Assembly (NCBI GenBank): GCA_015061915.1
Contig: SUVR01000007.1
Location: forward strand, 1-64,000
DNA from: Lentisphaerota bacterium
GTDB lineage: Bacteria > Verrucomicrobiota > Lentisphaeria > Victivallales > UBA1829
Direction of reading: 5' to 3'
Length of the DNA: 64,000 bases
Shown here piece after piece: positions 1 to 12,114 of the stretch. Each line of letters starts with the position of its first letter. Within the stretch, counting starts at the first letter, position 1. The notes under the pieces were generated by a model. It saw only the letters and a list, made by a program, of their open reading frames with translations. It ran no database searches and was not told the origin of the DNA. A program made the translations under genes and the position numbers.

Positions 1-1
1 T

Positions 2-253
2 CAAATCGGCAGAGCCGGAACAAGTATCGGAGCCAACATCCACGAAGCGCAATATGCTCACGGGAAAGCTGATTTTGTTTCAAAACTGCAAATTGCCTTG
101 AAAGAAGCCAATGAAACAAGCTACTGGCTGCTGCTATTGGGAAAAACAAATATCCTTTCTTCTGCAGAATATGATCGGTTGGAAACTCTCTGCCGGGAAA
201 TCAGAATAACTCTGATTGCCTCAATCAACACTACGAAACAGAATCTTAAATAA
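2..253 (+). CDS. Four-helix-bundle protein (S23/IVP/Avd fold), 3' part
   Basis: The open frame runs in from the window edge; only the last 83 codons are visible. The fragment is a close paralogue of the complete gene at 3968-4327: 77 of 83 residues are the same, and the DNA is also close. It contains GANIHEAQYAHGKADF, the central signature of the 23S rRNA intervening-sequence protein family, a small all-helical fold shared with the Avd protein of diversity-generating retroelements. No rRNA is visible next to it, so it is not evidently inside a 23S gene. Molecular function is unknown; members form pentameric barrels and are thought to bind nucleic acid. The 3' flank (about 254-298) resembles the 3' flank of the second copy, so the duplicated unit extends beyond the stop codon. 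Confidence 0.85.
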   Translation, partial: QIGRAGTSIGANIHEAQYAHGKADFVSKLQIALKEANETSYWLLLLGKTNILSSAEYDRLETLCREIRITLIASINTTKQNLK

Positions 254-326
254 CCCATTGCGGTAGAGCATTCATCAAACGGCATTTTTGATTTTTATCA
301 AAAAATATCCTCTTGAAAAATAAAAA

Positions 327-379
327 GGCGGCAGGATAATTCCTACCGCCAAAAGCTCTGCTTCGACAAGCAGAGATTT
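327..379 (+). terminator. Double hairpin, likely terminator
   Basis: The first stem pairs GGCGGCAGGA (327-336) with TCCTACCGCC (341-350), with one mismatch. The second pairs CTCTGCTT (356-363) with AAGCAGAG (368-375) perfectly around a CGAC loop and is followed by ATTTT. It lies about 75-125 nt past the stop of the four-helix-bundle gene. Confidence 0.5.
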
Positions 380-699
380 TCCGCCTTTCATACCGACATC
401 CGTTTTCGGGGGTGACAGACATTTATCCCCTTTTCTCTGTTTTGTGACATAAGTGCTTCATTTGCAATGCTGGCAGATGTCGTTTTTTGATCAAACAAGA
501 CATCCAACCTCATATATGCCTTAAGCCGACAAGCGCTCCGCTGAACCACCATAAATGTGCGGAAACGGCATCATCTATATTGTGGTTGCGGTGCGCCGCT
601 GTGCTTTCGATTTTGAACACGATCTTAAATCCGGCAGTGATCACGCTTTTGCCAAACGGCATTCTTTGAAAAATTTTTGAGTTTTTCTGTATATCGCCA

Positions 700-727
700 T
701 TGTATTTATCATAACCCAGAGTAGAGT
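700..727 (+). promoter_or_regulatory. Possible promoter for the SDR gene
   Basis: -35 TTGTAT (700-705), 16-nt spacer, -10 TAGAGT (722-727), 62 nt before the SDR start. The -10 departs from the TATATT seen elsewhere in the window, so this is a weak call. Confidence 0.35.
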
Positions 728-789
728 AAAAGGGTTGAAATATATCCGGTATTTCTGAAAATCAATGAGTTTGTATAGGGAGAGTCATT

Positions 790-1527
790 ATGCTTTTTCG
801 TAATCGCACCGCTGTCATCACAGGCGCCGCAGGCAGAATCGGCAGAGCCACTTCTCTGGCTCTCGGAAAGCAGGGAGTCAAACTTTATCTTGCTGACATC
901 AAGCTTGATGCGCTTCAGGAGTTTGTCAAGGAACTTGCTGCCGAAAATATTGATGCCACAGCGGTGATGATGGATGTAACATCGCTTGAAAGCATCCGCA
1001 ATGCAGCTGATGAAATACTCCGCAGTGCGGGGAAAGTGGATATTCTGGTCAATAATGCCGGTTCGTGGCCTCAAAAAAGTCTCATTGACACCGATGATGA
1101 GTTGTGGAACTTTTCGCTTGAGCTCAATTTGAGCAGCGTATTCAGAGTGACCAAGGCATTTCTGCCTTCTATGCTCGAACAGCAGTACGGCAGAATCATC
1201 AACATTGGGTCGATTGCCGGAATCTGCGGTCTGCCGGGATATTTCGCCTACTCCACCTGCAAGGCAGGAGTTCAGATGATGACAAAAGTAATGGCAATGG
1301 AACTTGCCAAAAAAGGAATAACCGTTAACAGTGTTTCTCCCGGACTCATCGATGATGTGGTAAAAGAGACCACCGGGACCTGGATCGGTAAAACCGGGAC
1401 AGGTGCCGATATCGCCAGAGCGATCGTCTATCTTGCCAGCGACAACAGCTCTTTCGTGACCGGCAGTGATATGGCAGTTGACGGAGCAAGAACCGCCGGT
1501 CCGCTCAATCCCACATTCAAAGGTTGA
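790..1527 (+). CDS. SDR-family oxidoreductase
   Basis: A 245-aa classical short-chain dehydrogenase/reductase, a cytoplasmic NAD(P)-dependent alcohol/ketone oxidoreductase. Visible motifs: TGAAGRIG nucleotide-binding loop (residues 11-18, with Arg where most members have the middle Gly), NNAG (88-91), catalytic Ser141, Tyr154 and Lys158 in YSTCK. Length is typical of FabG-like enzymes. The ATG at 790 follows a GGGAGAG ribosome-binding site. The next gene (1608) begins 80 nt downstream on the same strand and may be co-transcribed; together they suggest sugar or polyol oxidation, but the substrate cannot be read from sequence. It is not clearly fatty-acid FabG because no fab genes are nearby. 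Confidence 0.85.
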   Translation: MLFRNRTAVITGAAGRIGRATSLALGKQGVKLYLADIKLDALQEFVKELAAENIDATAVMMDVTSLESIRNAADEILRSAGKVDILVNNAGSWPQKSLIDTDDELWNFSLELNLSSVFRVTKAFLPSMLEQQYGRIINIGSIAGICGLPGYFAYSTCKAGVQMMTKVMAMELAKKGITVNSVSPGLIDDVVKETTGTWIGKTGTGADIARAIVYLASDNSSFVTGSDMAVDGARTAGPLNPTFKG

Positions 1528-1607
1528 AAAAAGGTATTTTGCAAGGGGGTCGGACAAATTCAATTGAGAACGCTATACGCTGAAAAATGATTGCAGGAGC
1601 TTGGAAT

Positions 1608-3581
1608 ATGAGTGATTCAGCATTTCCTTTTATCATCATCCGCTGTTACGGTACCGGTGAAGAAAACCGCTCTTTTATCACTGCGGTATTTGCTGCCCAG
1701 AAGCAATATCCCGGTCTGGTCAATGAGATATGGTTCAGCGGCAATGTATTGGAGGCGTGGCAGCAAAATGAGCTGCTGGCACGACAATCGCTGCCGTTTC
1801 GCAATGAGTGCCGCCAGCTGGGCATCGACTTCTCCTATCAGCATGGGATAACGCTGAATCACTCCGGCGACGGGAAACACCATGCGGATATTTTTTCTCC
1901 GGAAGCGTGGGCGGTGGATATCGACGGTGAACGCGCCTGGGGGATGTTTTGCGCCAACTCTCCGGAAGCGCGGCAATACACCCTTGAAACAGCCGAAAAG
2001 TTCCTTGCTCTGCTCCAACCGGACTCCTATTGGCCCGATGATGACTTGCGCCTCTACTGCAAAGGAGGCAAAAATTACTGTTTCTGCGATCGCTGTATTG
2101 CTGAATTCAACCGGCGTTTCGGCGGAAGTTTTACCCGTCAGGAGTTGAAAGAGGCCCTTTTCGGCGATATGCCGGATGCCGGAGTGCGGCGGCAGTGGAT
2201 GAAATTCAACGGTGAAACGCTGGGTGAATTTGCAGCACTTTTCCGCGCTGCAGTTGCCAAAGTGCTGCCCCGGTGCCGTCTGGGGATTCAGACAGTATAT
2301 TCCGACTGGCGTTATGACGGTGATGATTTTCGCCCGATGATCGAAGCTCTTGCCGGAGCGGAAAAAGCGCCGGTTGGCGTGCGCCCGGGTGCCTGTTATT
2401 ATGATGAACGCACCCCCCGGGAGATGCTGATGAAGTCGCTCTCTGCCGGAGAGGAAGCCGCCCGCTGCAAAGCGTACAACAACGGCGGTCAAATCTGTTA
2501 TGAAGCGGAAAACTGGCCTCACATCTCCGCCCGGAAAAGTCCGGAAGCGCAGATGATTGAGTGTGCGCTGATGCTGGCGCGGGGCATGGATTCCCTTGCG
2601 CTCTATTGGGGTTCGGATAAAAATGATGAGGGTGAAGCAAATTACCGATTTTACTTTGACACACTGGCGCAGTACAAGGCATATTTTCTGGCGATACGGG
2701 ACGCTTGCAAAAATTCGCATCTTGCCGGGGGAACCTTTTTTCATGGCGGCAATTTTGCTGCCGGAAAAAACTGGTGTTCCGTTGCCGATGAGGATGAGCT
2801 TTTCTGGATGAGCAATGGTGTGCCGATCGTCAGAGAGAGCTGCGAATGTGAATTTTTCATGCTCAATCAGCGGGCGGTGAAAGAGCTTGCAGGGGCGGAT
2901 TTGCCAAAACTTTTCGCCTCCACGGTGCTGATGGATATTGAAGCCTTTGAAGCCTTGAAAGCCGGTTTCCCCGGTTTGAAGTTTCCGGAGAAAGTGGAGC
3001 TGGAGGCTCTTTCTGCATCGTCCAAAGCCGCCGGAGCGGATGAACTTTATGAGTGTTTTGAAAGAAAGTTCCAGGCGTTGGATTTCAGCAAGCTCATTCA
3101 TCCCAAATCCGGAGATGTCAAAAGTTTCAGCACCTTTACCAACAACAGCGATGCCGCCGGCATCTGCACCATCCCCACAGAATACGGCGGTAATGTGGTG
3201 TTGATACAATATATGAACCGGTTTATGCTCAACGGCTTCCGGCGCAAAGCCATTTTGGATGCTCTGGATTCGGTTATTCCCGGCGGAATGGCAGTGCGTT
3301 TGCTGACCAACGGCTTTGCGGTCAATGTCATCGCCCGCAAAGCTGACAGCGGCAAAACTGCCGGAGCGTTTCTGCTCAATCTTTCCATCGGCGCCACCCC
3401 GGAGCTGGAAGTGGCGATCCGCAATCCGGAGTATCAGGAGTATGAACTTATCCTGCCCAAGCAGCCGCCGGTGAAACTGGTTCCGTATACGGCAGGCGAA
3501 AATGAACTTTGCTTCCGCATTCCTGCCCTTTCCGGCTGGCAGTCGGCTTTGATCGCAGGCAGTTCCCGGATGAGCAAATAA
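1608..3581 (+). CDS. Large glycosidase-like TIM-barrel protein, uncharacterised
   Basis: About 657 aa with no signal peptide or membrane segment. I take ATG 1608 because AGGAG (1595-1599) sits 8 nt before it; an in-frame ATG at 1587 lacks such a site. The middle contains a Trp/Asp-rich stretch (SYWPDDDLRLYCKGGKNY) followed by CFCDRC, and later ALYWGSDKNDEGEANY. Combinations like these occur in glycoside-hydrolase-like barrels that Lentisphaerota and Planctomycetes carry in many copies. The C-terminal 150 residues look like a beta-rich domain. The exact family and the catalytic acids cannot be assigned by eye. Its position behind an SDR suggests sugar metabolism. The paired Cys could bind metal. 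Confidence 0.6.
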   Translation: MSDSAFPFIIIRCYGTGEENRSFITAVFAAQKQYPGLVNEIWFSGNVLEAWQQNELLARQSLPFRNECRQLGIDFSYQHGITLNHSGDGKHHADIFSPEAWAVDIDGERAWGMFCANSPEARQYTLETAEKFLALLQPDSYWPDDDLRLYCKGGKNYCFCDRCIAEFNRRFGGSFTRQELKEALFGDMPDAGVRRQWMKFNGETLGEFAALFRAAVAKVLPRCRLGIQTVYSDWRYDGDDFRPMIEALAGAEKAPVGVRPGACYYDERTPREMLMKSLSAGEEAARCKAYNNGGQICYEAENWPHISARKSPEAQMIECALMLARGMDSLALYWGSDKNDEGEANYRFYFDTLAQYKAYFLAIRDACKNSHLAGGTFFHGGNFAAGKNWCSVADEDELFWMSNGVPIVRESCECEFFMLNQRAVKELAGADLPKLFASTVLMDIEAFEALKAGFPGLKFPEKVELEALSASSKAAGADELYECFERKFQALDFSKLIHPKSGDVKSFSTFTNNSDAAGICTIPTEYGGNVVLIQYMNRFMLNGFRRKAILDALDSVIPGGMAVRLLTNGFAVNVIARKADSGKTAGAFLLNLSIGATPELEVAIRNPEYQEYELILPKQPPVKLVPYTAGENELCFRIPALSGWQSALIAGSSRMSK

Positions 3582-3599
3582 AAGATCATTCCGGCGGTG

Positions 3600-3636
3600 C
3601 GACTTTGGTCGTTCATGAGCCACTCATGACCAGTCG
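3600..3636. repeat. Bulged hairpin
   Basis: CGACT (3600-3604) pairs with AGTCG (3632-3636), GGT with ACC, and CATGAG with CTCATG around a CCA loop. It begins 19 nt after the stop of the glycosidase-like gene but lacks the T-tract of an intrinsic terminator. Confidence 0.5.
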
Positions 3637-3674
3637 TAGCGGAGAGAGGTCGAAGGTTCGGATAGCTTGACGCC

Positions 3675-3703
3675 CACCATTTTTGCCAGCGGCAAAAATG
3701 GTG
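3675..3703. repeat. Perfect 13-bp hairpin
   Basis: CACCATTTTTGCC (3675-3687) and GGCAAAAATGGTG (3691-3703) are exact reverse complements separated by AGC. The stem abuts the hairpin array. Confidence 0.85.
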
Positions 3704-3704
3704 A

Positions 3705-3870
3705 ATGAAGCCTGTCAAGGCTTCGCTTCATGCACCGAAAGGTGCGCTTCATGGCACAATGTGCCGCTTCATACGCCGACAGGCGTGCTTCATAAAACAG
3801 CCTTGCCAGATGAAGCAGCTGCATTTCATTCCGCTATGAAGCATTTTCCGTTTTACTTCAAATATGAAGC
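3705..3870. repeat. Array of mini-hairpins spaced by GCTTCAT / ATGAAGC
   Basis: Four GCTTCAT heptamers (3725-3731, 3746-3752, 3766-3772, 3787-3793) recur every 20-21 nt. The three intervals between them are each a different small perfect hairpin: GCACC-gaaa-GGTGC, GGCAC-aat-GTGCC, ACGCC-gaca-GGCGT. The reverse complement ATGAAGC occurs once before them (3705-3711) and three times after (3810-3816, 3836-3842, 3864-3870), so four heptamers face four complements. In the hairpins the pairing is kept while the bases differ, which points to selection on structure. The function is unknown. The intervals are self-complementary and only about 14 nt, so this is not CRISPR. Confidence 0.85.
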
Positions 3871-3916
3871 ATTCGCTCCGCTCATATGATTAGAAAATGA
3901 AAAATGAGAGTTGTGT

Positions 3917-3945
3917 TTGCAAACGTTCCTTGCCTATGCTATATT
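3917..3945 (+). promoter_or_regulatory. Promoter of the four-helix-bundle gene
   Basis: -35 TTGCAA (3917-3922), 17-nt spacer, -10 TATATT (3940-3945). Transcription would start near 3952, giving a leader of only about 16 nt. The hairpin array therefore lies upstream of this transcript, not inside it. Confidence 0.6.
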
Positions 3946-3967
3946 ATTCGGAGGAAAGGAAAATCTC

Positions 3968-4327
3968 ATGGAAAAAGCTTCAAACAAACTCGTTGATCTT
4001 TCGGTTGCCTTTGCAGTTGAAATTCTGAATTTAGTCAAATTCCTGAAAGAGCAAAAAGAAACGATCATCCGCAATCAAATCGGCAGGTCAGGAACCAGTA
4101 TTGGTGCCAATATCCACGAAGCGCAATATGCACATGGGAAAGCTGATTTTGTTTCAAAACTGCAAATTGCCTTGAAAGAAGCCAATGAAACAAGTTACTG
4201 GCTGTTGTTGTTGAGCAAAACAAATATTATTTCACCGGCTGAATATGATCAGTTGGAAACTCACTGTCGTGAAATCAGAATAACTCTGATTGCCTCAATC
4301 AACACCACGAAACAGAATCTTAAATAA
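3968..4327 (+). CDS. Four-helix-bundle protein (S23/IVP/Avd fold)
   Basis: 119 aa, the usual length of the 23S rRNA intervening-sequence protein family. ATG 3968 follows GGAGGAAAGG (3950-3959); the longer frame from 3911 would begin upstream of the -35. The protein is almost entirely alpha-helical, with the family signature GANIHEAQYAHGKADF and the C-terminal helix REIRITLIASIN. Relatives are found inside 23S intervening sequences, as Avd accessory proteins of diversity-generating retroelements, and as free-standing genes of unknown role. No reverse transcriptase or variable repeat is present here, so it is a free-standing type. A second copy lies at the window start. The hairpin array immediately upstream is the natural candidate partner nucleic acid; that link is inference. 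Confidence 0.88.
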   Translation: MEKASNKLVDLSVAFAVEILNLVKFLKEQKETIIRNQIGRSGTSIGANIHEAQYAHGKADFVSKLQIALKEANETSYWLLLLSKTNIISPAEYDQLETHCREIRITLIASINTTKQNLK

Positions 4328-4415
4328 CACATTATTGCTGTGCTTTTATCAAGCGGCATTTCTGACACTTTGTTATTGTATTTTATCATCGAATATCAAA
4401 AAAATCATCTGACAA

Positions 4416-4430
4416 TTTGATTAAATCAAA
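4416..4430. promoter_or_regulatory. Palindrome, possible operator
   Basis: TTTGATT (4416-4422) and AATCAAA (4424-4430) form a perfect inverted repeat with a 1-nt centre, 55 nt before the -35 of the next gene. A repressor or activator site is possible, but AT-rich palindromes also arise by chance. Confidence 0.2.
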
Positions 4431-4485
4431 AATTTTCATAAAAACCAATTTTTACAGAAAATTATCGAAAATCTATAATCCGCAC

Positions 4486-4514
4486 TTGTAAACGCCTGCG
4501 GAAGATGGTATATT
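4486..4514 (+). promoter_or_regulatory. Promoter of the gene at 4551
   Basis: -35 TTGTAA (4486-4491), 17-nt spacer, -10 TATATT (4509-4514). The spacer and flanks closely match those of the promoter at 5503-5531, including the shared CCTGCGG. Confidence 0.65.
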
Positions 4515-4550
4515 CCAACGTCGGTTAATTTTGGCATGGAGGAACAGAAT

Positions 4551-5468
4551 ATGAAAAATAAAAGATTTACAGCCGTTTTCCTGATAAGTATTCTTGTTTT
4601 AAGCTCTGTAATTGCTGCTTTATGGATAAAAAACAGTGACCTGAAAGAAGAGTTGGAAGAGTGTTCCCAATATAAAAGATTTTTTTTCGCCTTTAATGGA
4701 AGCGTTTGTTCCGTCGCTCCAATCAACGCCGGAGATATAAATAAGCCGCTGTATCTCGAATACCACACCAATGGAACTGTTTCAAGCTGGTGCGTCGCTA
4801 AAAATTCTGCCGACTTAAAGAATGGCGGGAAACTCTTTTTCTTGGGAAAATATAGGCTTTTACTGGGTAATTCCGGGCAAATGCAGCATTGGTCGATGGG
4901 CAATATCAATGAGGATCTTCGCCGGTATCCAAATATTTGGAACTACAACCAGCCGGTGTCACCGGGAGAATATTTTGTAAAATTCGGCAACTATGGATTG
5001 ACCACAGATTTTAAGCAACTTTCTCCAAAGGAAAACGGAATAAGGTTGACCTTTAACAAAATAGAGGAGCCTCAGGCAAGTATTGAAAAACGGCAAATAT
5101 CGGAAACATTGCAAAAATTTTTGATTGCAGTGCAAATCCCGGATTATGTAAAACATGGCAAAGCTGATTTTGATGCATTGGAACATCAAGCCGAATCATT
5201 GAGGCTTGTAACGCTGGCGTTCAATTCCGGAGCAGACACATTGGATTCTGTATTGGATGAAGAAATGCGTTTGTTGGATATTCTGATGGCGGATAAAAGT
5301 TTGACCGGACGCGAAAAAGGGTTGTTGATAAAAGAATATGGGACACGCCTGAATCACCTCTGTCGTATAAAAGAAGCGGAATGGAAAGCCGGGGCTTTAC
5401 CGTTAAAGGATCTGGAATCATACCGGAAAAGAGTTTCTGACTTTCAAAAAGCACATAATATAAAGTGA
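4551..5468 (+). CDS. Membrane-anchored protein of unknown function
   Basis: 305 aa. I choose ATG 4551 because GGAGG (4538-4542) lies just before it; an ATG at 4536 overlaps that site. Residues 8-26 form one hydrophobic segment after a Lys/Arg-rich start (signal anchor or uncleaved signal), so the rest is probably periplasmic. A short charged helix (LKEELEE) follows the membrane segment, then a mixed region rich in Tyr/Asn, then a helical C-terminal third with many Leu/Glu/Lys. I recognise no family. It has its own strong promoter and is not in an obvious operon. Confidence 0.7.
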   Translation: MKNKRFTAVFLISILVLSSVIAALWIKNSDLKEELEECSQYKRFFFAFNGSVCSVAPINAGDINKPLYLEYHTNGTVSSWCVAKNSADLKNGGKLFFLGKYRLLLGNSGQMQHWSMGNINEDLRRYPNIWNYNQPVSPGEYFVKFGNYGLTTDFKQLSPKENGIRLTFNKIEEPQASIEKRQISETLQKFLIAVQIPDYVKHGKADFDALEHQAESLRLVTLAFNSGADTLDSVLDEEMRLLDILMADKSLTGREKGLLIKEYGTRLNHLCRIKEAEWKAGALPLKDLESYRKRVSDFQKAHNIK

Positions 5469-5502
5469 AGCTGATTGATTTTACCACAGCAATTTTTTGC
5501 AG

Positions 5503-5531
5503 TTGTAAACACCTGCGGGAGAAAGTATATT
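5503..5531 (+). promoter_or_regulatory. Promoter-like element, target unknown
   Basis: -35 TTGTAA (5503-5508), 17-nt spacer, -10 TATATT (5526-5531). It is nearly a copy of the promoter at 4486-4514. No convincing gene follows within 350 nt. Confidence 0.5.
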
Positions 5532-5687
5532 ATCTTTGAGGTGGTCTGGAAAAGTATTGATTGGTCACGTAAAACAGAAAACGGCATCACGGCATTTCGT
5601 TATACAACAGGGAAACGCTTGGGGATATTTTCGGCAGATGAGTGCTTTTATTTGACAAAAGTTGAGTAATTTTTTTCTTCGGGAAAT

Positions 5688-5716
5688 TTGTAAATTTTTG
5701 TGGAATATGTTATTAT
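5688..5716 (+). promoter_or_regulatory. Promoter-like element, target unknown
   Basis: -35 TTGTAA (5688-5693), 17-nt spacer, -10 TATTAT (5711-5716), in an AT-rich stretch where chance matches are common. Confidence 0.3.
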
Positions 5717-5823
5717 TCTGATAAGAAATCTTTTTAAAGTAGGAACTGCCATTTTTAAGCAATATCAATCTTCAAAAAAATGTGCTTGAATTTTACAAAA
5801 AAACAGTTTTTTCAAAGTTGGTG

Positions 5824-5851
5824 TTGCATAATATGGTATATGCGTTATATT
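5824..5851 (+). promoter_or_regulatory. Promoter of the C45 hydrolase gene
   Basis: -35 TTGCAT (5824-5829), 16-nt spacer, -10 TATATT (5846-5851). The ribosome-binding site AGGAG (5883-5887) and ATG 5895 follow. Confidence 0.6.
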
Positions 5852-5894
5852 ACCCATAGACTGTCTTAACAAAACAACTTTACAGGAGTGTCTT

Positions 5895-7046
5895 ATGAAA
5901 AGAATCAGTTGGATGGGATTGGTCGTTTTTGCGGGGCTGCTCTGCTCCGGCGTTGCGGTGGCGGCTGAAGATTAAGAGATCACGGAACTGCAGCACGAAT
6001 GTACCAGCTGGATCGTGCTTTCCGATCTGACCAAAAACAATACCAATATCCTGCACAAAAACCGGGATGCTCTCTCCAGAAAAAGTTGCGTCATATTCAG
6101 CCCGAAAAATTCGCGGCGCAAGTGGATCGCCATCGGGGACGGCGGTCAAACCGCTATGGGGATGACTTCGACCGGTCTTGCCGGCGCAATGAACAGCGGG
6201 GAATTGTGCATCAATGCCCCCACCGACAACAAGAAAAAGCCGCCGCTGAAATTTTTCCGCGCCATACTGGACAGTTGCGATACTGCAGCGCAGGCGGTCG
6301 AAAAGTGCAAAGAACTGCTCGCCGCCGGTGATTACTGGTGCAAGGACAAAGGCTCCATCTTTTTCTTTCTGGACGCAAAAGAAGGTTATATTTGCGAGTT
6401 CACAGCGAAAAATTTTACGGTCCAGCACATTACATCCGGTTTTTCCGTGCGGGCAAATATCTGGATGAATCCCGGTATGCAGACCTATTCCCGCAATACG
6501 GTCAGCAACTATCTGGACAGCGCCGCGCGGATGTATCGGGCGTACTCCGGTTTGAATGAGCTTCTGGATACAAAAGGCAAGATTGAGCTGCTGGACATTT
6601 TTGAGCTTTCCCGCAGCCACAAAATGCCGAAAGGATCTTCTCAGGGACGCTCCCTCTGCTTCGGCGCGACCAACTCCGCCGTGAGTATGGAAGTCGACCG
6701 TGAATACCCGGATGTGCTTTCCACCATTTATGCGGCGATCGGACACCCCCGGCATACCGTTTATATCCCGTTGCCCGTATGTACGGAACAGGTCCAGGTC
6801 CTGCCGGAAATGCTGAACGGCAAGTGGGACGCCGCTTCGTGGAAACGGTTCAAGGAACTGAAGCTCTCTGCTCCGATCCCGGAAGAATGGACCAAGTTTG
6901 AAGCCGATTCCCTTGCAACCTACAAGAAAGCACAGGCGGATGCCCGCGCCCTGCTGAAACAGGGCAAGCGCACCAAAGCAATCAAACTGCTGAACGATAC
7001 CGCCTCTGCCATCTGGAACGATGGGAAAGTGCTGCTGGGCTTGTAA
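5895..7046 (+). pseudogene. C45-type Ntn-hydrolase gene interrupted by in-frame TAA
   Basis: ATG 5895 with ribosome-binding site AGGAG opens a clean signal peptide (MKRISWMGLVVFAGLLCSG, then VAVAAED). It meets a TAA at 5973-5975. The same frame continues without another stop to 7046. The downstream part resembles the peptidase C45/acyltransferase group of N-terminal-nucleophile hydrolases (isopenicillin N acyltransferase, carcinine hydrolase type). A CTSW motif whose Cys (TGT 6000-6002) would be the nucleophile follows the stop by eight codons, and IGDGGQTAMGMTSTGLAGAMN follows later. A GTG at 6015 could start a shorter protein but would lack the Cys and the export signal. So the gene is either a recent nonsense mutant, a sequencing error, or read through. 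TAA is not a known Sec or Pyl codon. An exported amide hydrolase is the likely ancestral role. Confidence 0.7.
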
Positions 7047-7094
7047 TCAAAAAATATCCTGTAATACCAAAACATTTTTCAAGAAGACGAAAAA

Positions 7095-8117
7095 ATGTTG
7101 AAAAAAATCTTTATTCTCGCCCTCGTTTCTCTCTGTACGGCTGCTGTCTGCGGAGAAAAATACAGCGTCCTTGTCTTCGGGGACACCCACTACGATTCCA
7201 AAGACGTCCGTGTGGAAACAAAACTGACCCGGAACAAGAAACTTGAATTGGCACGCAATTTGGAGATCTGGAAAACGAATATGCCTCTTCTCATCAAAGC
7301 AGCCGCTGAAAAAGGTAATGCCAATGCAGATTTTGCCGTTCAGCTGGGAGACTTGACGCAAGGCGACTGCGGGGCAAGAGAATTGCAGGAAAAATCATTC
7401 CGCAATGTGCTGGAGATCTTTCAGAAGGAACTGAAGATCCCCTTTTATACCATCAAAGGAAACCACGATATCCGGGGGAAGGGCGCACACGCTGCGTACG
7501 ATGCCGTGATGCTTCCCTATATGAGCCAGGTATTGAAGCAGCCGGTCCCGAAAAACCGGAAAGCCAATTTTGCCGTTATGCACAAAGGCGACCTTTACAT
7601 TTATTTTGACTGCATGAAGCCGGATGTGGATTTTGTATATAAAGCGCTTGAAAAATATCCGGATGCCCGCTACACATTTCTGTTGACGCACATTCCTGTT
7701 CTGCCCGGTCATAATGCGGCAGGGCTTGTGCCGGACGAGGCGGAACGCCCGGAATTTCTCAAGGCACTGGCAAAACGGAAAGCGATCGTGTTGTGCGCAC
7801 ACGTTCATATCACAACCATGATCCGCTGTGAGATGGAAGAAGGGGACATCGTGCAGCTTGTCAGTTACAGTCTTCCCCGGGATCTGCATCAGGAATATAC
7901 TGTTATCGGAGGAAGTATTTTTGATTTGTACCGGAAACTTGACAAGCCGGATAAACTGGCACCGCTCAAGCCCTTTTTTGAGTCCCGGCTGAAAGATTTT
8001 GTTTATCACCGGTACGGCGGCGGATTCAATATGCTGAATGTCAGCGATGAAGGCGTTTTTTGCGATCTCTATACCGGCGATATGAAAGCGCCGTTCAAGA
8101 CCGTAAAACTGCGTTGA
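7095..8117 (+). CDS. Exported calcineurin-like metallophosphoesterase
   Basis: 340 aa. Signal peptide MLKKIFILALVSLCTAAVCG, so the enzyme is likely periplasmic. It has the full metallophosphoesterase motif set: GDTH (Asp30, His32), GDLTQGD (Asp86), GNHD (Asn123, His124), His199 in LLTHIPV, and CAHVH (His236, His238). These bind the two metal ions that hydrolyse phosphomonoesters or diesters; the substrate is unknown. It starts 48 nt after the broken C45 hydrolase gene with no promoter evident between them, so the two were probably one transcript. A second, differently built metallophosphoesterase lies at 10375. Confidence 0.85.
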   Translation: MLKKIFILALVSLCTAAVCGEKYSVLVFGDTHYDSKDVRVETKLTRNKKLELARNLEIWKTNMPLLIKAAAEKGNANADFAVQLGDLTQGDCGARELQEKSFRNVLEIFQKELKIPFYTIKGNHDIRGKGAHAAYDAVMLPYMSQVLKQPVPKNRKANFAVMHKGDLYIYFDCMKPDVDFVYKALEKYPDARYTFLLTHIPVLPGHNAAGLVPDEAERPEFLKALAKRKAIVLCAHVHITTMIRCEMEEGDIVQLVSYSLPRDLHQEYTVIGGSIFDLYRKLDKPDKLAPLKPFFESRLKDFVYHRYGGGFNMLNVSDEGVFCDLYTGDMKAPFKTVKLR

Positions 8118-8169
8118 AGAGTGCTTCGACATTTGCAAGGAAAGAATATCCATTCGGGAGAATTATGAT

Positions 8170-9504
8170 ATGCGGAATGTGAAAGATTACGGCGCAAAGG
8201 GCGACGGCATCACGAAAGATACGGCGGCGATCCAGCGGGCGATCGATGAGGGCGGCGTGGTTTATTTCCCGCCGGGAACTTATCTTTCCGGCACCCTTTA
8301 CCTGCGCTCCAACGGCGGTCTGCATCTGGAGCACGGTGCAACGCTGAAAGCATCTCCCGATCCGGCAGATTATAATGCAGATGATTTTTGTCCGCAGAAC
8401 GCCGTTTTTTCCAAAGAGTATGTCAGCGGCGCCCACTTCATCGTGGCGGTGGAGCAGGAAAATCTCGTACTCTCCGGCACCGGAAAGATCGACGGCAACC
8501 GGCAGGCGTTTTACGGCGACAAAACAGAGCCGGACTGCGAAAAGTGCAGCGGAAAATTTTCCAGAGAGGAACTGATCAACTCCTGGCGTCCGGCGCAGAT
8601 GATCTATTTTGTGGAGTGTAAAGACATCCACATTGCCGACCTGAAACTTTACAACGCCCCGTACTGGACCTGTTTCCTCCACGGCTGCGAGGATGTTCAG
8701 ATCCGTTCTTTGCGGATCCTGAACGATCAACGCACCCGCAACGGCGACGGGATCGATATTGACTGCTGCCGCCGGGTGACCATCTCCGACTGCATTATTG
8801 ATTCCGGCGACGACTGCATCACCTTGCGCGGAGCGGAACGGAAGTTGAAAAACAAACTGCCCTGTGAGTATGTGACGGTAACAAATTGTGTGCTGCATAC
8901 CAACTGCAATGCCATCCGCATCGGCGTGGGCAACGGCATTGTCCGGAATGCAACTTTCTCCAATATTGTGATCAACCGGTCCCGCACGGGGATCGCGATC
9001 ATCTCAAACTATCTTGCCACACCGGACACGGGCGTGCAGATCGAAAACATCTCCTTTTCCAATATTCAGATGGAAACGGAAAGTCCGCTGTTCCTTCTTT
9101 CCAACGTCAACGGCGCACAGCCGGAACCGGCGGCAAAGATGATCCGGAACATCTCGCTCCGTCAGATCCGAGGAACATTCAGCAAAAATCTATCGATCAG
9201 CGGCTGTGCGGGGACCGGCGTGGAAAATATTTCATTGGAAGATATGGAGCTGGAGTGCATCGGCAGTTCCCACCCTCATTCCGATGACATCACGGCGTCT
9301 TACGGCGAATGGGGCAAAACGCAATCCGAAGGAGCGTTTTACATTGCCCATACACGGGATGTCCGTCTTCATCGGGTTCGGATCAAGTGGAATGATCTGC
9401 CGGGCTGGAAATACGGCATCGTGAGCTACAACGACTCCGATACCGGAATTACGGATTGTCACTTCGGCAAGCCGCTGAACCGGGGCGGAAACATCATTCC
9501 GTGA
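8170..9504 (+). CDS. GH28-family (polygalacturonase-like) glycosidase
   Basis: 444 aa, no signal peptide. ATG 8170 follows CGGGAG (8155-8160). The N-terminus (VKDYGAKGDGITKDTAAIQ) is the standard opening of pectin-lyase-fold proteins. The GH28 core motifs are NGDGID (191-196) and GDDC (213-216), which supply the catalytic Asp residues, and a later CNAIRIG replaces the usual GHG/RIK region. GH28 enzymes hydrolyse galacturonan or rhamnogalacturonan linkages; a cytoplasmic member would act on imported oligosaccharides. The gene converges on and overlaps the MBL hydrolase gene by 11 nt at its 3' end. Exact specificity cannot be read. Confidence 0.85.
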   Translation: MRNVKDYGAKGDGITKDTAAIQRAIDEGGVVYFPPGTYLSGTLYLRSNGGLHLEHGATLKASPDPADYNADDFCPQNAVFSKEYVSGAHFIVAVEQENLVLSGTGKIDGNRQAFYGDKTEPDCEKCSGKFSREELINSWRPAQMIYFVECKDIHIADLKLYNAPYWTCFLHGCEDVQIRSLRILNDQRTRNGDGIDIDCCRRVTISDCIIDSGDDCITLRGAERKLKNKLPCEYVTVTNCVLHTNCNAIRIGVGNGIVRNATFSNIVINRSRTGIAIISNYLATPDTGVQIENISFSNIQMETESPLFLLSNVNGAQPEPAAKMIRNISLRQIRGTFSKNLSISGCAGTGVENISLEDMELECIGSSHPHSDDITASYGEWGKTQSEGAFYIAHTRDVRLHRVRIKWNDLPGWKYGIVSYNDSDTGITDCHFGKPLNRGGNIIP

Positions 9505-10192
9505 GATGGACTGCCCGGGCAAATGATGCCGGATCGTGACCGCTGATGATATGGAAGCCATCCTCACGCAGGCGCCTGAAATATTCCACTGTCTCCGGGG
9601 AAGTGAAACGTATTTCCCGGTCATCATCCAATGCGCAATCCATATAGAGGGCATCGGCGGCAAGGCAGATCCGGGTCCCGTCATCCAATGTCAGCAGCAG
9701 GGATTGATGTCCGGGGGTATGTCCCGGCGTCGGAACGGCGATGATCCTGCCGTCGTTGAACAGATCCGTTTCCCCGTCGAGGATCTGCCATTTCTTTTCC
9801 GGGAACGCAGAAATCAACTTTTTTCCGGCGGGCGTTTCGACTTCTTTCCGCTGGAAAAAACAGGTGATATTGCCCAGATCTGCCAAGCCGCCGCAATGGT
9901 CGCCATGAGTGTGGGAAAGGATCAGATGTGATACTTTTTTCGCAGAAAGTCCGTGCTGCTCCAACTGCCGGAGGAGTGAGTCTTCCGCCGTCATCACGGG
10001 AATATAATCTGCCGAATCCGCGACCGGCGTTTCCGGCATTTGCTGTCCGCAATCAAAAAGGATCAGGCATTCCCGGTGTTCGATGGCAAAGAACGGCACC
10101 GGCACTTCGATCCGCTCCGGCGTTTCTGTTTCACCCGCCAGCAGATGCCGCCATGTCCGGATCGTTCCGCTTTTCAATATTGTCAAACGCAT
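9494..10192 (-). CDS. MBL-fold metallohydrolase, lactonase-like
   Basis: 232 aa. It has the metallo-beta-lactamase motif HTHGDH (His94, His96, Asp98, His99), His158 in PGHTPGH, Asp180 and His219: a complete dinuclear metal site. The arrangement and length resemble N-acyl-homoserine-lactone lactonases and related sugar or aryl lactonases. Given the neighbouring GH28 gene, a lactone from sugar oxidation is a reasonable substrate, but this is inference. There is no signal peptide. It overlaps the 3' end of the GH28 gene tail to tail and is divergent from the phosphoesterase gene at 10375. Confidence 0.8.
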   Translation of the reverse strand: MRLTILKSGTIRTWRHLLAGETETPERIEVPVPFFAIEHRECLILFDCGQQMPETPVADSADYIPVMTAEDSLLRQLEQHGLSAKKVSHLILSHTHGDHCGGLADLGNITCFFQRKEVETPAGKKLISAFPEKKWQILDGETDLFNDGRIIAVPTPGHTPGHQSLLLTLDDGTRICLAADALYMDCALDDDREIRFTSPETVEYFRRLREDGFHIISGHDPASFARAVHLTE

Positions 10193-10299
10193 ATTGATTT
10201 CCCCGAATGGAATCTTCCTGATCTGTTATCCCGTTATCTTCTTTTGCTGAAAACTATACACGCTCTCCGTAAAAAAACAAGCCGTTTTTTCTTCTGTTC

Positions 10300-10327
10300 T
10301 TGAAAACGCCGGATGCCGCAGTATATT
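10300..10327 (+). promoter_or_regulatory. Promoter of the phosphoesterase gene at 10375
   Basis: -35 TTGAAA (10300-10305), 16-nt spacer, -10 TATATT (10322-10327). An in-frame ATG at 10300 lies within this promoter and so cannot be the start codon. Confidence 0.7.
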
Positions 10328-10374
10328 ACTTCTGTAATGCTCAAACTCAAAACTGTAATGGAAAGGCGAACAAG

Positions 10375-12114
10375 ATGAGTTTTCGTAAGGATATTGTCAA
10401 CTGGAAGTGGAGATATTTTTTCGCACCCGGAATGCCGGACGTATTGGAAAATGTGACCGGTTTTATTGATGAAACGCTTGATCTCGGCAACGGTACGCAG
10501 GTGACCGGTCAGCCCTTTGATTTTTATCCGGAAGGATTTATGAACGTTTTTGATGTGATTCCGGATGCTGAAAAAGGAACCCCCTTGAACCGGACCATTC
10601 TGACCGCTGATTTCGATGCAGACGAACCCGGCGTTCTGACTGTCGGTCTGGCGGCTGACTGGCAATGGTCTTTCCGGTTCAACGGAAAAATGCTGCTGGA
10701 TGCCCGCAGATGTTCCAACAGTGAGTTCCCCATCCATTATACAAATCATACCGTGGAGCTGGCGTATCAGAAAGGACGCAATCAGGTGGTCTTTGAGATC
10801 TTCAGTACCTTCGGGCGCCGGGGGATCGGCGGCGGAATGGATACCACCCTGAAAATCGTGGAGTCGCCTCTTCCGCTGGATTTTAAATACAAAGCCTTCG
10901 TTGCCTTCCCCGATGCGGATGAAAATGCGCTTTCTGTCATCTTTACCGGAAACCGTAAATCTCCCGCCGCTGTCGATTACCGGATCCCCGGAGCGGATGA
11001 ATGGTTGCGGGTCTATGATAATCTGGGCGGGCAGATCCGGCATGACCGTGCGGTCCACAGCGTCCGGCTGGATGAACTGCTGCCGGATACCGTGTATGAA
11101 TACCGTCCGGTGCTTCTGGATGACATCCGGTCCTGGTTTGAGACTTATGGCGAAGTCCGGACGATCCGCACCGCACCGGCTCCGGGAAAAGATTTCACCT
11201 TTACTGCCACGGCGGACCTGCAACTGCCCCATCTCCGTACAGAATATATGCAGAAGATCCTGACAAAGAGCGACTTCAAGCCGGATTTCTTCGCGTTCAT
11301 CGGCGATTTGGAATGGACGACCTTTTTCGATCAGCAGGTGATGGATTCTTTTATCGTTCCCTTCCGGCAGATCACAGATGGAACGATGCCGCTGGTGATG
11401 ACCCGGGGCAACCATGAAATCTACGGGAAAGATTCCAACCGCTACTTTGAATATTTCACACCCCCGTATCCCGGCAGGGAAGGGTACTATATGTTCCGCT
11501 GGGGGGATGTGTGTTTCTTCTCTCTGGATTTCTGCGATGATGCCGGACGGGTCGCCGCTCCCTCCACACGTCAGTTCCATGACTTTGAACCGTACATCGC
11601 CGCTGAAGCCAAATGGCTGAAAAAAGCCGTTGAACTGCCTATGTGCCGGAATGCAAAATACCGTATCGTGCTGGCGCACGGTCTCCCCTCCGGCGATGCA
11701 CAGAAATATTTACCCGGACACGTCCGGCAGGTGATCGATCCCGTTTTCGGCGGCAGTGATCCGGTCTGCCCGATCCATCTGTGGCTGGGGGGACACATCC
11801 ACCGTCCCTTCCGCAGTATCCCCGGAAAACGGGCGTTTTATTCTGCTGTCCCTCCTGAAAAGATCCCTCACGGCGATGCCATCCCGGATGCCTGGAACAA
11901 CTACAACTTCCCTGTCCTTGCCACCGGCGGACCGACGGGACGCCTGGGCGAAAATATGCAGTTTACCAGTTTTGAAGTCGCGGTGACATCTGAAAGCATC
12001 ACGGTACGCTGTCTGGACCGGAATCAGCTGGAATTCGACCGCATTGTGATCGCTCCGGACGGCAAAGTCACGGAAGACGCCCCCGGCACTTCTATGATGT
12101 ACTTTGAATATTGA
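10375..12114 (+). CDS. Cytoplasmic metallophosphoesterase with N-terminal beta domains
   Basis: 579 aa from ATG 10375, preceded by GGAAAGG; no signal peptide. Residues 1-165 look like a beta-sandwich (galactose-binding-like), about 170-268 like a fibronectin-III-type module, and the rest is a calcineurin-like phosphoesterase. Motifs: TADLQL (Asp281), FIGDLEW (Gly310-Asp311), TRGNHE (Asn346-His347), AHGLPSGD and GGHIH. The first metal motif is D-x-Q in place of the usual D-x-H, so one ligand differs from the classical set. Purple-acid-phosphatase-like architecture is possible. It ends 12 nt before the convergent recR stop. Confidence 0.75.
   Translation: MSFRKDIVNWKWRYFFAPGMPDVLENVTGFIDETLDLGNGTQVTGQPFDFYPEGFMNVFDVIPDAEKGTPLNRTILTADFDADEPGVLTVGLAADWQWSFRFNGKMLLDARRCSNSEFPIHYTNHTVELAYQKGRNQVVFEIFSTFGRRGIGGGMDTTLKIVESPLPLDFKYKAFVAFPDADENALSVIFTGNRKSPAAVDYRIPGADEWLRVYDNLGGQIRHDRAVHSVRLDELLPDTVYEYRPVLLDDIRSWFETYGEVRTIRTAPAPGKDFTFTATADLQLPHLRTEYMQKILTKSDFKPDFFAFIGDLEWTTFFDQQVMDSFIVPFRQITDGTMPLVMTRGNHEIYGKDSNRYFEYFTPPYPGREGYYMFRWGDVCFFSLDFCDDAGRVAAPSTRQFHDFEPYIAAEAKWLKKAVELPMCRNAKYRIVLAHGLPSGDAQKYLPGHVRQVIDPVFGGSDPVCPIHLWLGGHIHRPFRSIPGKRAFYSAVPPEKIPHGDAIPDAWNNYNFPVLATGGPTGRLGENMQFTSFEVAVTSESITVRCLDRNQLEFDRIVIAPDGKVTEDAPGTSMMYFEY

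Follow-up and report, generated by a model that had tools for sequence, protein, structure and literature searches.

An S23 gene and its ladder of unlike hairpins form a unit of a cassette family found behind tRNA genes in gut bacteria

In the Lentisphaerota stretch analysed here (the window, 64,000 nt, which is the first 64 kb of contig C24 in a genome of 2.49 Mb and 31 contigs), a gene for a small four-helix-bundle protein is preceded by a series of short hairpins that differ from one another and are joined by one heptamer and its complement. This arrangement raises the question of what the hairpins are, whether they belong with the protein, and whether they act as RNA or as DNA. We give a probability of roughly 0.55 to the reading that the window unit belongs to a mobile cassette family whose members insert where tRNA genes end (3′ CCA) and accumulate there in tandem.

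The gene at 3968–4327 (forward strand) encodes an S23/IVP protein of 119 aa that matches the PF05635 (E 1.1e-25, 90.4 bits versus a curated cut-off of 33.8) and TIGR02436 (E 1.9e-28, 98.8 bits versus 24) profiles, confirming the S23-fold gene that a first-pass annotation had placed downstream of the array. Its AlphaFold2 model (pLDDT 93.4) is a four-helix bundle, and the closest solved structure is 2RLD (TM 0.90), which contains five chains; 2GSC was also matched. Avd structures match the model more weakly (TM 0.6–0.75). The relation to Avd proposed in the same annotation is therefore one of fold, while the sequence family is S23 (PF05635), and no reverse transcriptase was found among the scanned window genes near the locus that would tie it to diversity-generating retroelements (DGRs). 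On both counts an Avd/DGR identity was set aside.

The array itself occupies 3705–3870 (forward strand). GCTTCAT is found at 3725, 3746, 3766 and 3787, with a spacing of 21, 20 and 21 nt, and its complement, ATGAAGC, at 3705, 3810, 3836 and 3864, so that four heptamers indeed face four complements. As first described, each of the three forward intervals holds a different hairpin (GCACCGAAAGGTGC, GGCACAATGTGCC and ACGCCGACAGGCGT); end stems are weaker in the intervals among the later ATGAAGC units. The heptamers number 26 in the 64-kb window, versus 11.8 expected and a maximum of 20 in shuffles, and eight of them are packed into 166 nt. A 13-bp stem noted earlier (3675–3687 with 3691–3703) is also present and forms a left-end hairpin at 3675–3703 (forward strand). 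The 311-nt region folds far better as RNA than its shuffles on both strands (z −6.35 and −5.88), and folding of 3671–3880 as single-stranded DNA gives a z of −6.69 against shuffles. The facing repeats are able to pair in nested order, which would produce a ladder of four-way junctions resembling the fold predicted for the window array. Downstream of the array lies a sigma-70-like promoter for the S23 gene (TTGCAA-17-TATATT, 3917–3945, forward strand).

The left end of the unit leads to a tRNA. The window array opens with CGCCCACCA (3671–3679), identical to the last nine bases of the tRNA-Val(TAC) of another copy in the genome, and these bases close a decayed repeat of that tRNA's 3′ end, from T-arm to CCA, at 3649–3679 (forward strand, 22 of 31 positions identical). 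Outside the exact 9 nt, 13 of 22 positions agree, versus a shuffle mean of 5.8 (fraction 0.0005). The 5′ arm of the left-end hairpin is made of the tRNA 3′-end copy CACCA plus TTTTTGCC, and relatives have this hairpin in the same place with respect to CCA. The sequence before 3649 does not support a full tRNA pseudogene, the 5′ remainder being at shuffle level, and ARAGORN found no tRNA gene in window positions 1–10000, where the decayed 3′ end alone remains.

The other copy, element 1, is the paralogue previously noticed at the window start, which is real. The first 127 nt of the window are exactly the last 127 nt of contig C30, so the element-1 S23 gene, whose 3′ part is at 1–253 (forward strand) and whose start is at G000:C30:27803, probably spans C30 to C24; to judge by this overlap, the fragment is most likely part of one gene across the join. 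It is 93–94% identical to the window S23. Its array shares the heptamers of the window array, differs in the hairpins and starts at the base after the CCA of tRNA-Val(TAC) (L013:7404-7480), a start that was out of sight for the first-pass annotation. Further arrays of this genome stand behind tRNA-Val(CAC), tRNA-Glu, tRNA-Ser(TGA) and tRNA-Ser(GGA); S23 is absent from them or reduced to a few codons, and in three of the four the cargo is a GNAT or lipoprotein gene. Copying of the unit within the genome, suspected from the start, is supported. The genome also has a third, distant S23 copy (G000:C25:229990-230337, L004; 43% identity, in-frame TAG), in whose flanks (L014) ARAGORN found no tRNA.

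Anchoring at tRNA genes extends well beyond this genome. Scanning 84,980 species genomes yielded 80 loci, mostly from metagenome assemblies, in Lentisphaerae, Clostridia and relatives, the majority from ruminant gut. Among the 71 homologues of at least 60% identity with 800 nt of upstream sequence (a few genomes being counted twice, with one and the same locus), 60 have a same-strand tRNA at most 800 nt upstream and none has one on the opposite strand, the chance expectation being about 0.9%. In close relatives, 220–490 nt separate the S23 gene from the exact CCA end of the same-strand tRNA that precedes it, and the arrays begin immediately after CCA. The linkage is seen in 25 of 28 cases in an order-wide sample; 78 of 197 genomes of one clostridial order have an S23 match of E 1e-30 or better, the best of which are tRNA-linked, and 1 of 18 homologues below 48% identity is linked. 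Nearly all tRNA isotypes are used, one locus is behind a tmRNA, and several close homologues that lack the linkage are second units in tandem. In four loci (L067, L075, L105 and L124), an array and S23 follow protein genes, one of which is groEL-like, and three of the four units come straight after hairpins resembling intrinsic terminators; consequently, tRNA ends are not the sole sites. One Kiritimatiellae genome (L068:3899-5354) has, behind a tmRNA gene, AGTGAATAG-type repeats and a pair of S23 genes, of which the second comes with an ATGAAGC-type array.

Pairing within the arrays is conserved while their sequence is not. End stems of at least 4 bp were found in 113 of 184 distinct inter-repeat intervals from 56 arrays, with 71 different arms, versus 6.9 in shuffles, intervals and shuffles being given the same slack of up to two bases at each end. 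In 20 clostridial arrays with seven hairpins, 88.9% of the cells are paired, 33 of 53 pairs have both partners changed, and the arrays score 0.350 for covariation, versus 0.147 when shuffled and at most 0.108 when slid; a long-range stem that shares one arm with hairpin 1 covaries too. These scores describe relatives and not the window's own small group. Looked for beside homologous genes, both a conserved array and covariation were found, so the earlier proposals that the hairpins vary with their pairing kept and that protein and array are a conserved pair stand. By contrast, the description of the S23 gene as free-standing is not borne out, since it belongs to a cassette at a tRNA 3′ end that occurs in tandem and with variable cargo.

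What such a cassette contains can be read from pairs of units. Near-identical array and S23 units are found at different tRNAs in both Lentisphaerae and Clostridia (for instance, L079 at Arg and L080 at Val, 94% identical; L086 at Ser and L097 at Trp; L058 at Ala and L059 at Val), and they are alike from CCA to about the S23 stop codon, after which they diverge. Of 36 loci in which an ORF lies close downstream, 25 have it starting at −4, overlapping the S23 stop as ATGA. The cargo families are unrelated to each other (NUDIX, His_Phos_1, pyrophosphatase, DUF4279, EEP nuclease, and MazG-like and kinase-like proteins, the last two from matches under the Pfam cut-offs), and S23 far exceeds every other cassette gene in conservation. 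It is absent from some arrays (L195, L196, L200 and the second cassette of L116), which indicates that it is dispensable in individual units. In the window, a 310-aa ORF at 4536–5468 (forward strand), which has no Pfam match and is not assigned to a family, is the probable cargo; positions 4478–5337 are 78% identical to DNA behind another cassette (L106:5777-6632). A motif, TTGTAAAC.CC.GCGGRAGA..GTAT, recurs at 4485–4515 and 5497–5530 of the window and at the end of L070, preceding cargo genes or ending cassettes.

Units also follow one another, with copies of the tRNA 3′ end between them. L070 has two complete units in tandem, and a right-end block of about 110 nt, common to many Lentisphaerae units, is followed within about 12 nt by the GCCGCCA left end of the next unit in L070, L087, L069, L083, L094 and L046. 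In L116, exact 19-nt copies of the 3′ end of tRNA-Ser flank unit 1, which shares a 97-nt right block with unit 2. The idea that the conserved right end is itself a hairpin was rejected, as it folds no better than shuffles (z −0.62). Between copies of the right-end block, the second cassette (L116:6203-7180) has TGTATATCATCA as its spacer, encodes a DUF6782-like putative metallopeptidase and lacks S23. In L082, L118 and L106, arrays are doubled or tripled in tandem upstream of a single S23 gene. Additionally, L247, L160 and L239 have short segments behind the tRNA, each closed by another copy of the tRNA 3′ end, which in L247 and L160 is preceded by an inverted GGGATTCGAA-like sequence and hairpins; these segments look like scars of lost cassettes.

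The repeats that join the hairpins change with the protein. More distant S23 genes (56–74% identity) are also tRNA-linked and have arrays with other repeats (GTGATG, ATGATG, GTGAAAT and GATGAAAT), and the S23 tree shows 11 changes of spacer type, versus 34–44 with shuffled labels. This agreement would be compatible with cognate recognition, and, as S23 and array are physically linked, it is no proof of binding. One of these arrays had been met before under another name. Weinberg et al. (2010, PMC2864571) reported Gut-1 (Rfam RF01706) as an orphan noncoding RNA from human gut sequence only, and where their main text names the motif, it is connected with neither tRNA genes nor S23 nor cassettes. 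Its model exceeds the gathering score of 50 in two GTGAAAT-type arrays (L113:3699-3773, 81.9 bits; L158:2008-2077, 65.0 bits) and matches other arrays weakly, including that of the window (3720–3795, reverse strand, E 0.00076 in 311 nt), where 28.8 bits is below the gathering score. At gathering scores, Rfam reported tRNA alone in the first ten loci, and Gut-1 came up only when weak matches were included. Gut-1 consists of three hairpins joined by GTGAAAT repeats, an architecture that it shares with the cassette arrays, and it spans 77 nt of a single spacer type. To judge by these sequence matches, Gut-1 is a piece of the S23-cassette arrays.

Taken together, a unit begins with a left-end hairpin joined to a tRNA 3′ end and continues with the ladder of unlike hairpins, the promoter and S23, followed by at least one exchangeable cargo gene, often in translational coupling with S23, the right end and a copy of the tRNA 3′ end. 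This anatomy is well established, as are the anchoring at tRNAs, the tandem arrangement, the exchange of cargo behind a fixed S23 and the conserved pairing of the hairpins. In the model that we propose for its working, the ladder, held by its facing short repeats, would act as folded single-stranded or cruciform DNA, an S23 pentamer may bind its repeats, and an enzyme supplied in trans would cut and join. We strongly infer that the cassettes are mobile. In its fullest and more tentative form, to which we would give somewhat less than an even chance, the model describes a new class of gene capture in gut Clostridia and Lentisphaerae, with entry at tRNA 3′ ends, an S23 pentamer that reads a ladder of folded DNA, cognate pairs of spacer and S23, and ordered accumulation, Gut-1 being a recombination site and not an RNA.

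The choice of DNA over RNA depends mainly on where transcription starts. S23 relatives are found in intervening sequences (IVSs) of rRNA and Avd binds RNA, and the array could accordingly be a structured RNA, made as a tRNA trailer or from a promoter of its own, with S23 as its binding partner, as Avd is in DGRs; the unit would then be a small selfish element in tRNA transcripts, like the IVS in 23S rRNA. The covariation, the strong RNA folds and the classification of Gut-1 as a noncoding RNA all agree with this idea, which we nevertheless consider unlikely. Promoter-like sites lie between the array and the S23 gene in 64 of 92 related loci, versus 10.2 expected, and, with the promoter downstream, the array is probably outside the S23 mRNA and its leader, so that a role as DNA is favoured. 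The hairpin that comes first after CCA in Clostridia, with its A-run and T-run, resembles the tRNA's own terminator, and DNA folding accounts for the covariation equally well. Of the structured RNA or DNA originally suggested as partner of the protein, the structure is well supported, while the RNA role is less likely than was implied.

No recombinase was found with the cassettes. Our best guess for the cutting enzyme of the proposed model, a tyrosine recombinase acting on the T-arm and acceptor end, comes from the direct repeats from T-loop to CCA in L116 and L247 and from an integrase at the tRNA-Val of relatives: in L191 and L192, which have no cassette, the orthologous tRNA-Val is followed, after about 120 nt, by the start of a tyrosine integrase gene (PF00589). 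The same observations would suit units that are non-autonomous passengers of known tRNA-targeting elements with shared att sites, S23 being a passenger with an unrelated role. Integrative elements and satellites of this kind also insert at tRNA 3′ ends with T-loop-to-CCA direct repeats (an exact 19 nt in L116 and a decayed 31 nt in the window), but the units described here are tandem, usually 1–2 kb long, present at nearly every isotype and equipped with hairpin ladders. Such a passenger origin is rather doubtful, as no integrase of similar kind was matched near 60 loci (with one query), no integrase is present in the tandem units where the sequence was read throughout, and S23 is the best conserved of the cassette genes by a wide margin. 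Tyrosine recombinases are few in the genomes concerned (0–4 in ten of 11, and 10 in the other), and some of them may be only XerC/D; the window's genome has three family members, two of which are taken to be XerC/D. The orthologous tRNA-Val has no element in four relatives, which are other genera (about 73–80% identity) and not strains; for L116, a search revealed no empty site.

That the array is instead a DNA operator or insulator of S23 and cargo, spread by ordinary homologous recombination among S23, array and tRNA, would fit its end just upstream of the promoter, the break in similarity at the S23 stop and the chimeric S23 remnants fused to cargo that occur, but it is improbable, because the units stand at unrelated tRNAs with homology limited to the T-arm and CCA and usual operators are not conserved as paired hairpins of free sequence.

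Among known systems, integrons come close to the proposed cassettes in their tandem arrangement, the variety of their small cargo genes (NUDIX, GNAT, MazG-like and others) and the hairpins of their attC recombination sites, which vary in sequence while pairing is kept. However, the present cassettes are anchored at tRNA 3′ ends and have a many-hairpin array upstream of a conserved S23, and no integron integrase (TIGR02249) exceeded its cut-off in 11 genomes, the assemblies being incomplete. The attC core is GTTRRRY, from which the spacers GTGAAG, ATGAAGC and GTGATG differ. The IVS of 23S rRNA with its S23p, as in Coxiella burnetii, is likewise small and joins an S23 gene to a gene for a stable RNA, and short repeats upstream of the S23 gene have been reported there too (PMC4990558). 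Nonetheless, the IVS sits inside 23S rRNA and is excised by RNase III, while the cassette lies downstream of a tRNA and has a hairpin array, a promoter and cargo; with no rRNA in window positions 1–12000 and a tRNA as anchor, IVS identity was rejected. A phage or plasmid element was rejected as well (one weak viral contig, and phage and plasmid matches all below 60% identity), as was a defence system, there being no PADLOC match for S23 or the cargo tried.

We found no description of these cassettes in open-access papers, within which the tRNA-anchored S23 family is apparently undescribed. The finding provides a possible role and a genomic setting for two orphans, the stand-alone S23 four-helix-bundle proteins and the Gut-1 motif, and makes the action of an S23 pentamer on folded DNA testable. 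More generally, gut bacteria may gain and exchange small genes by this route, which seems to be widespread.
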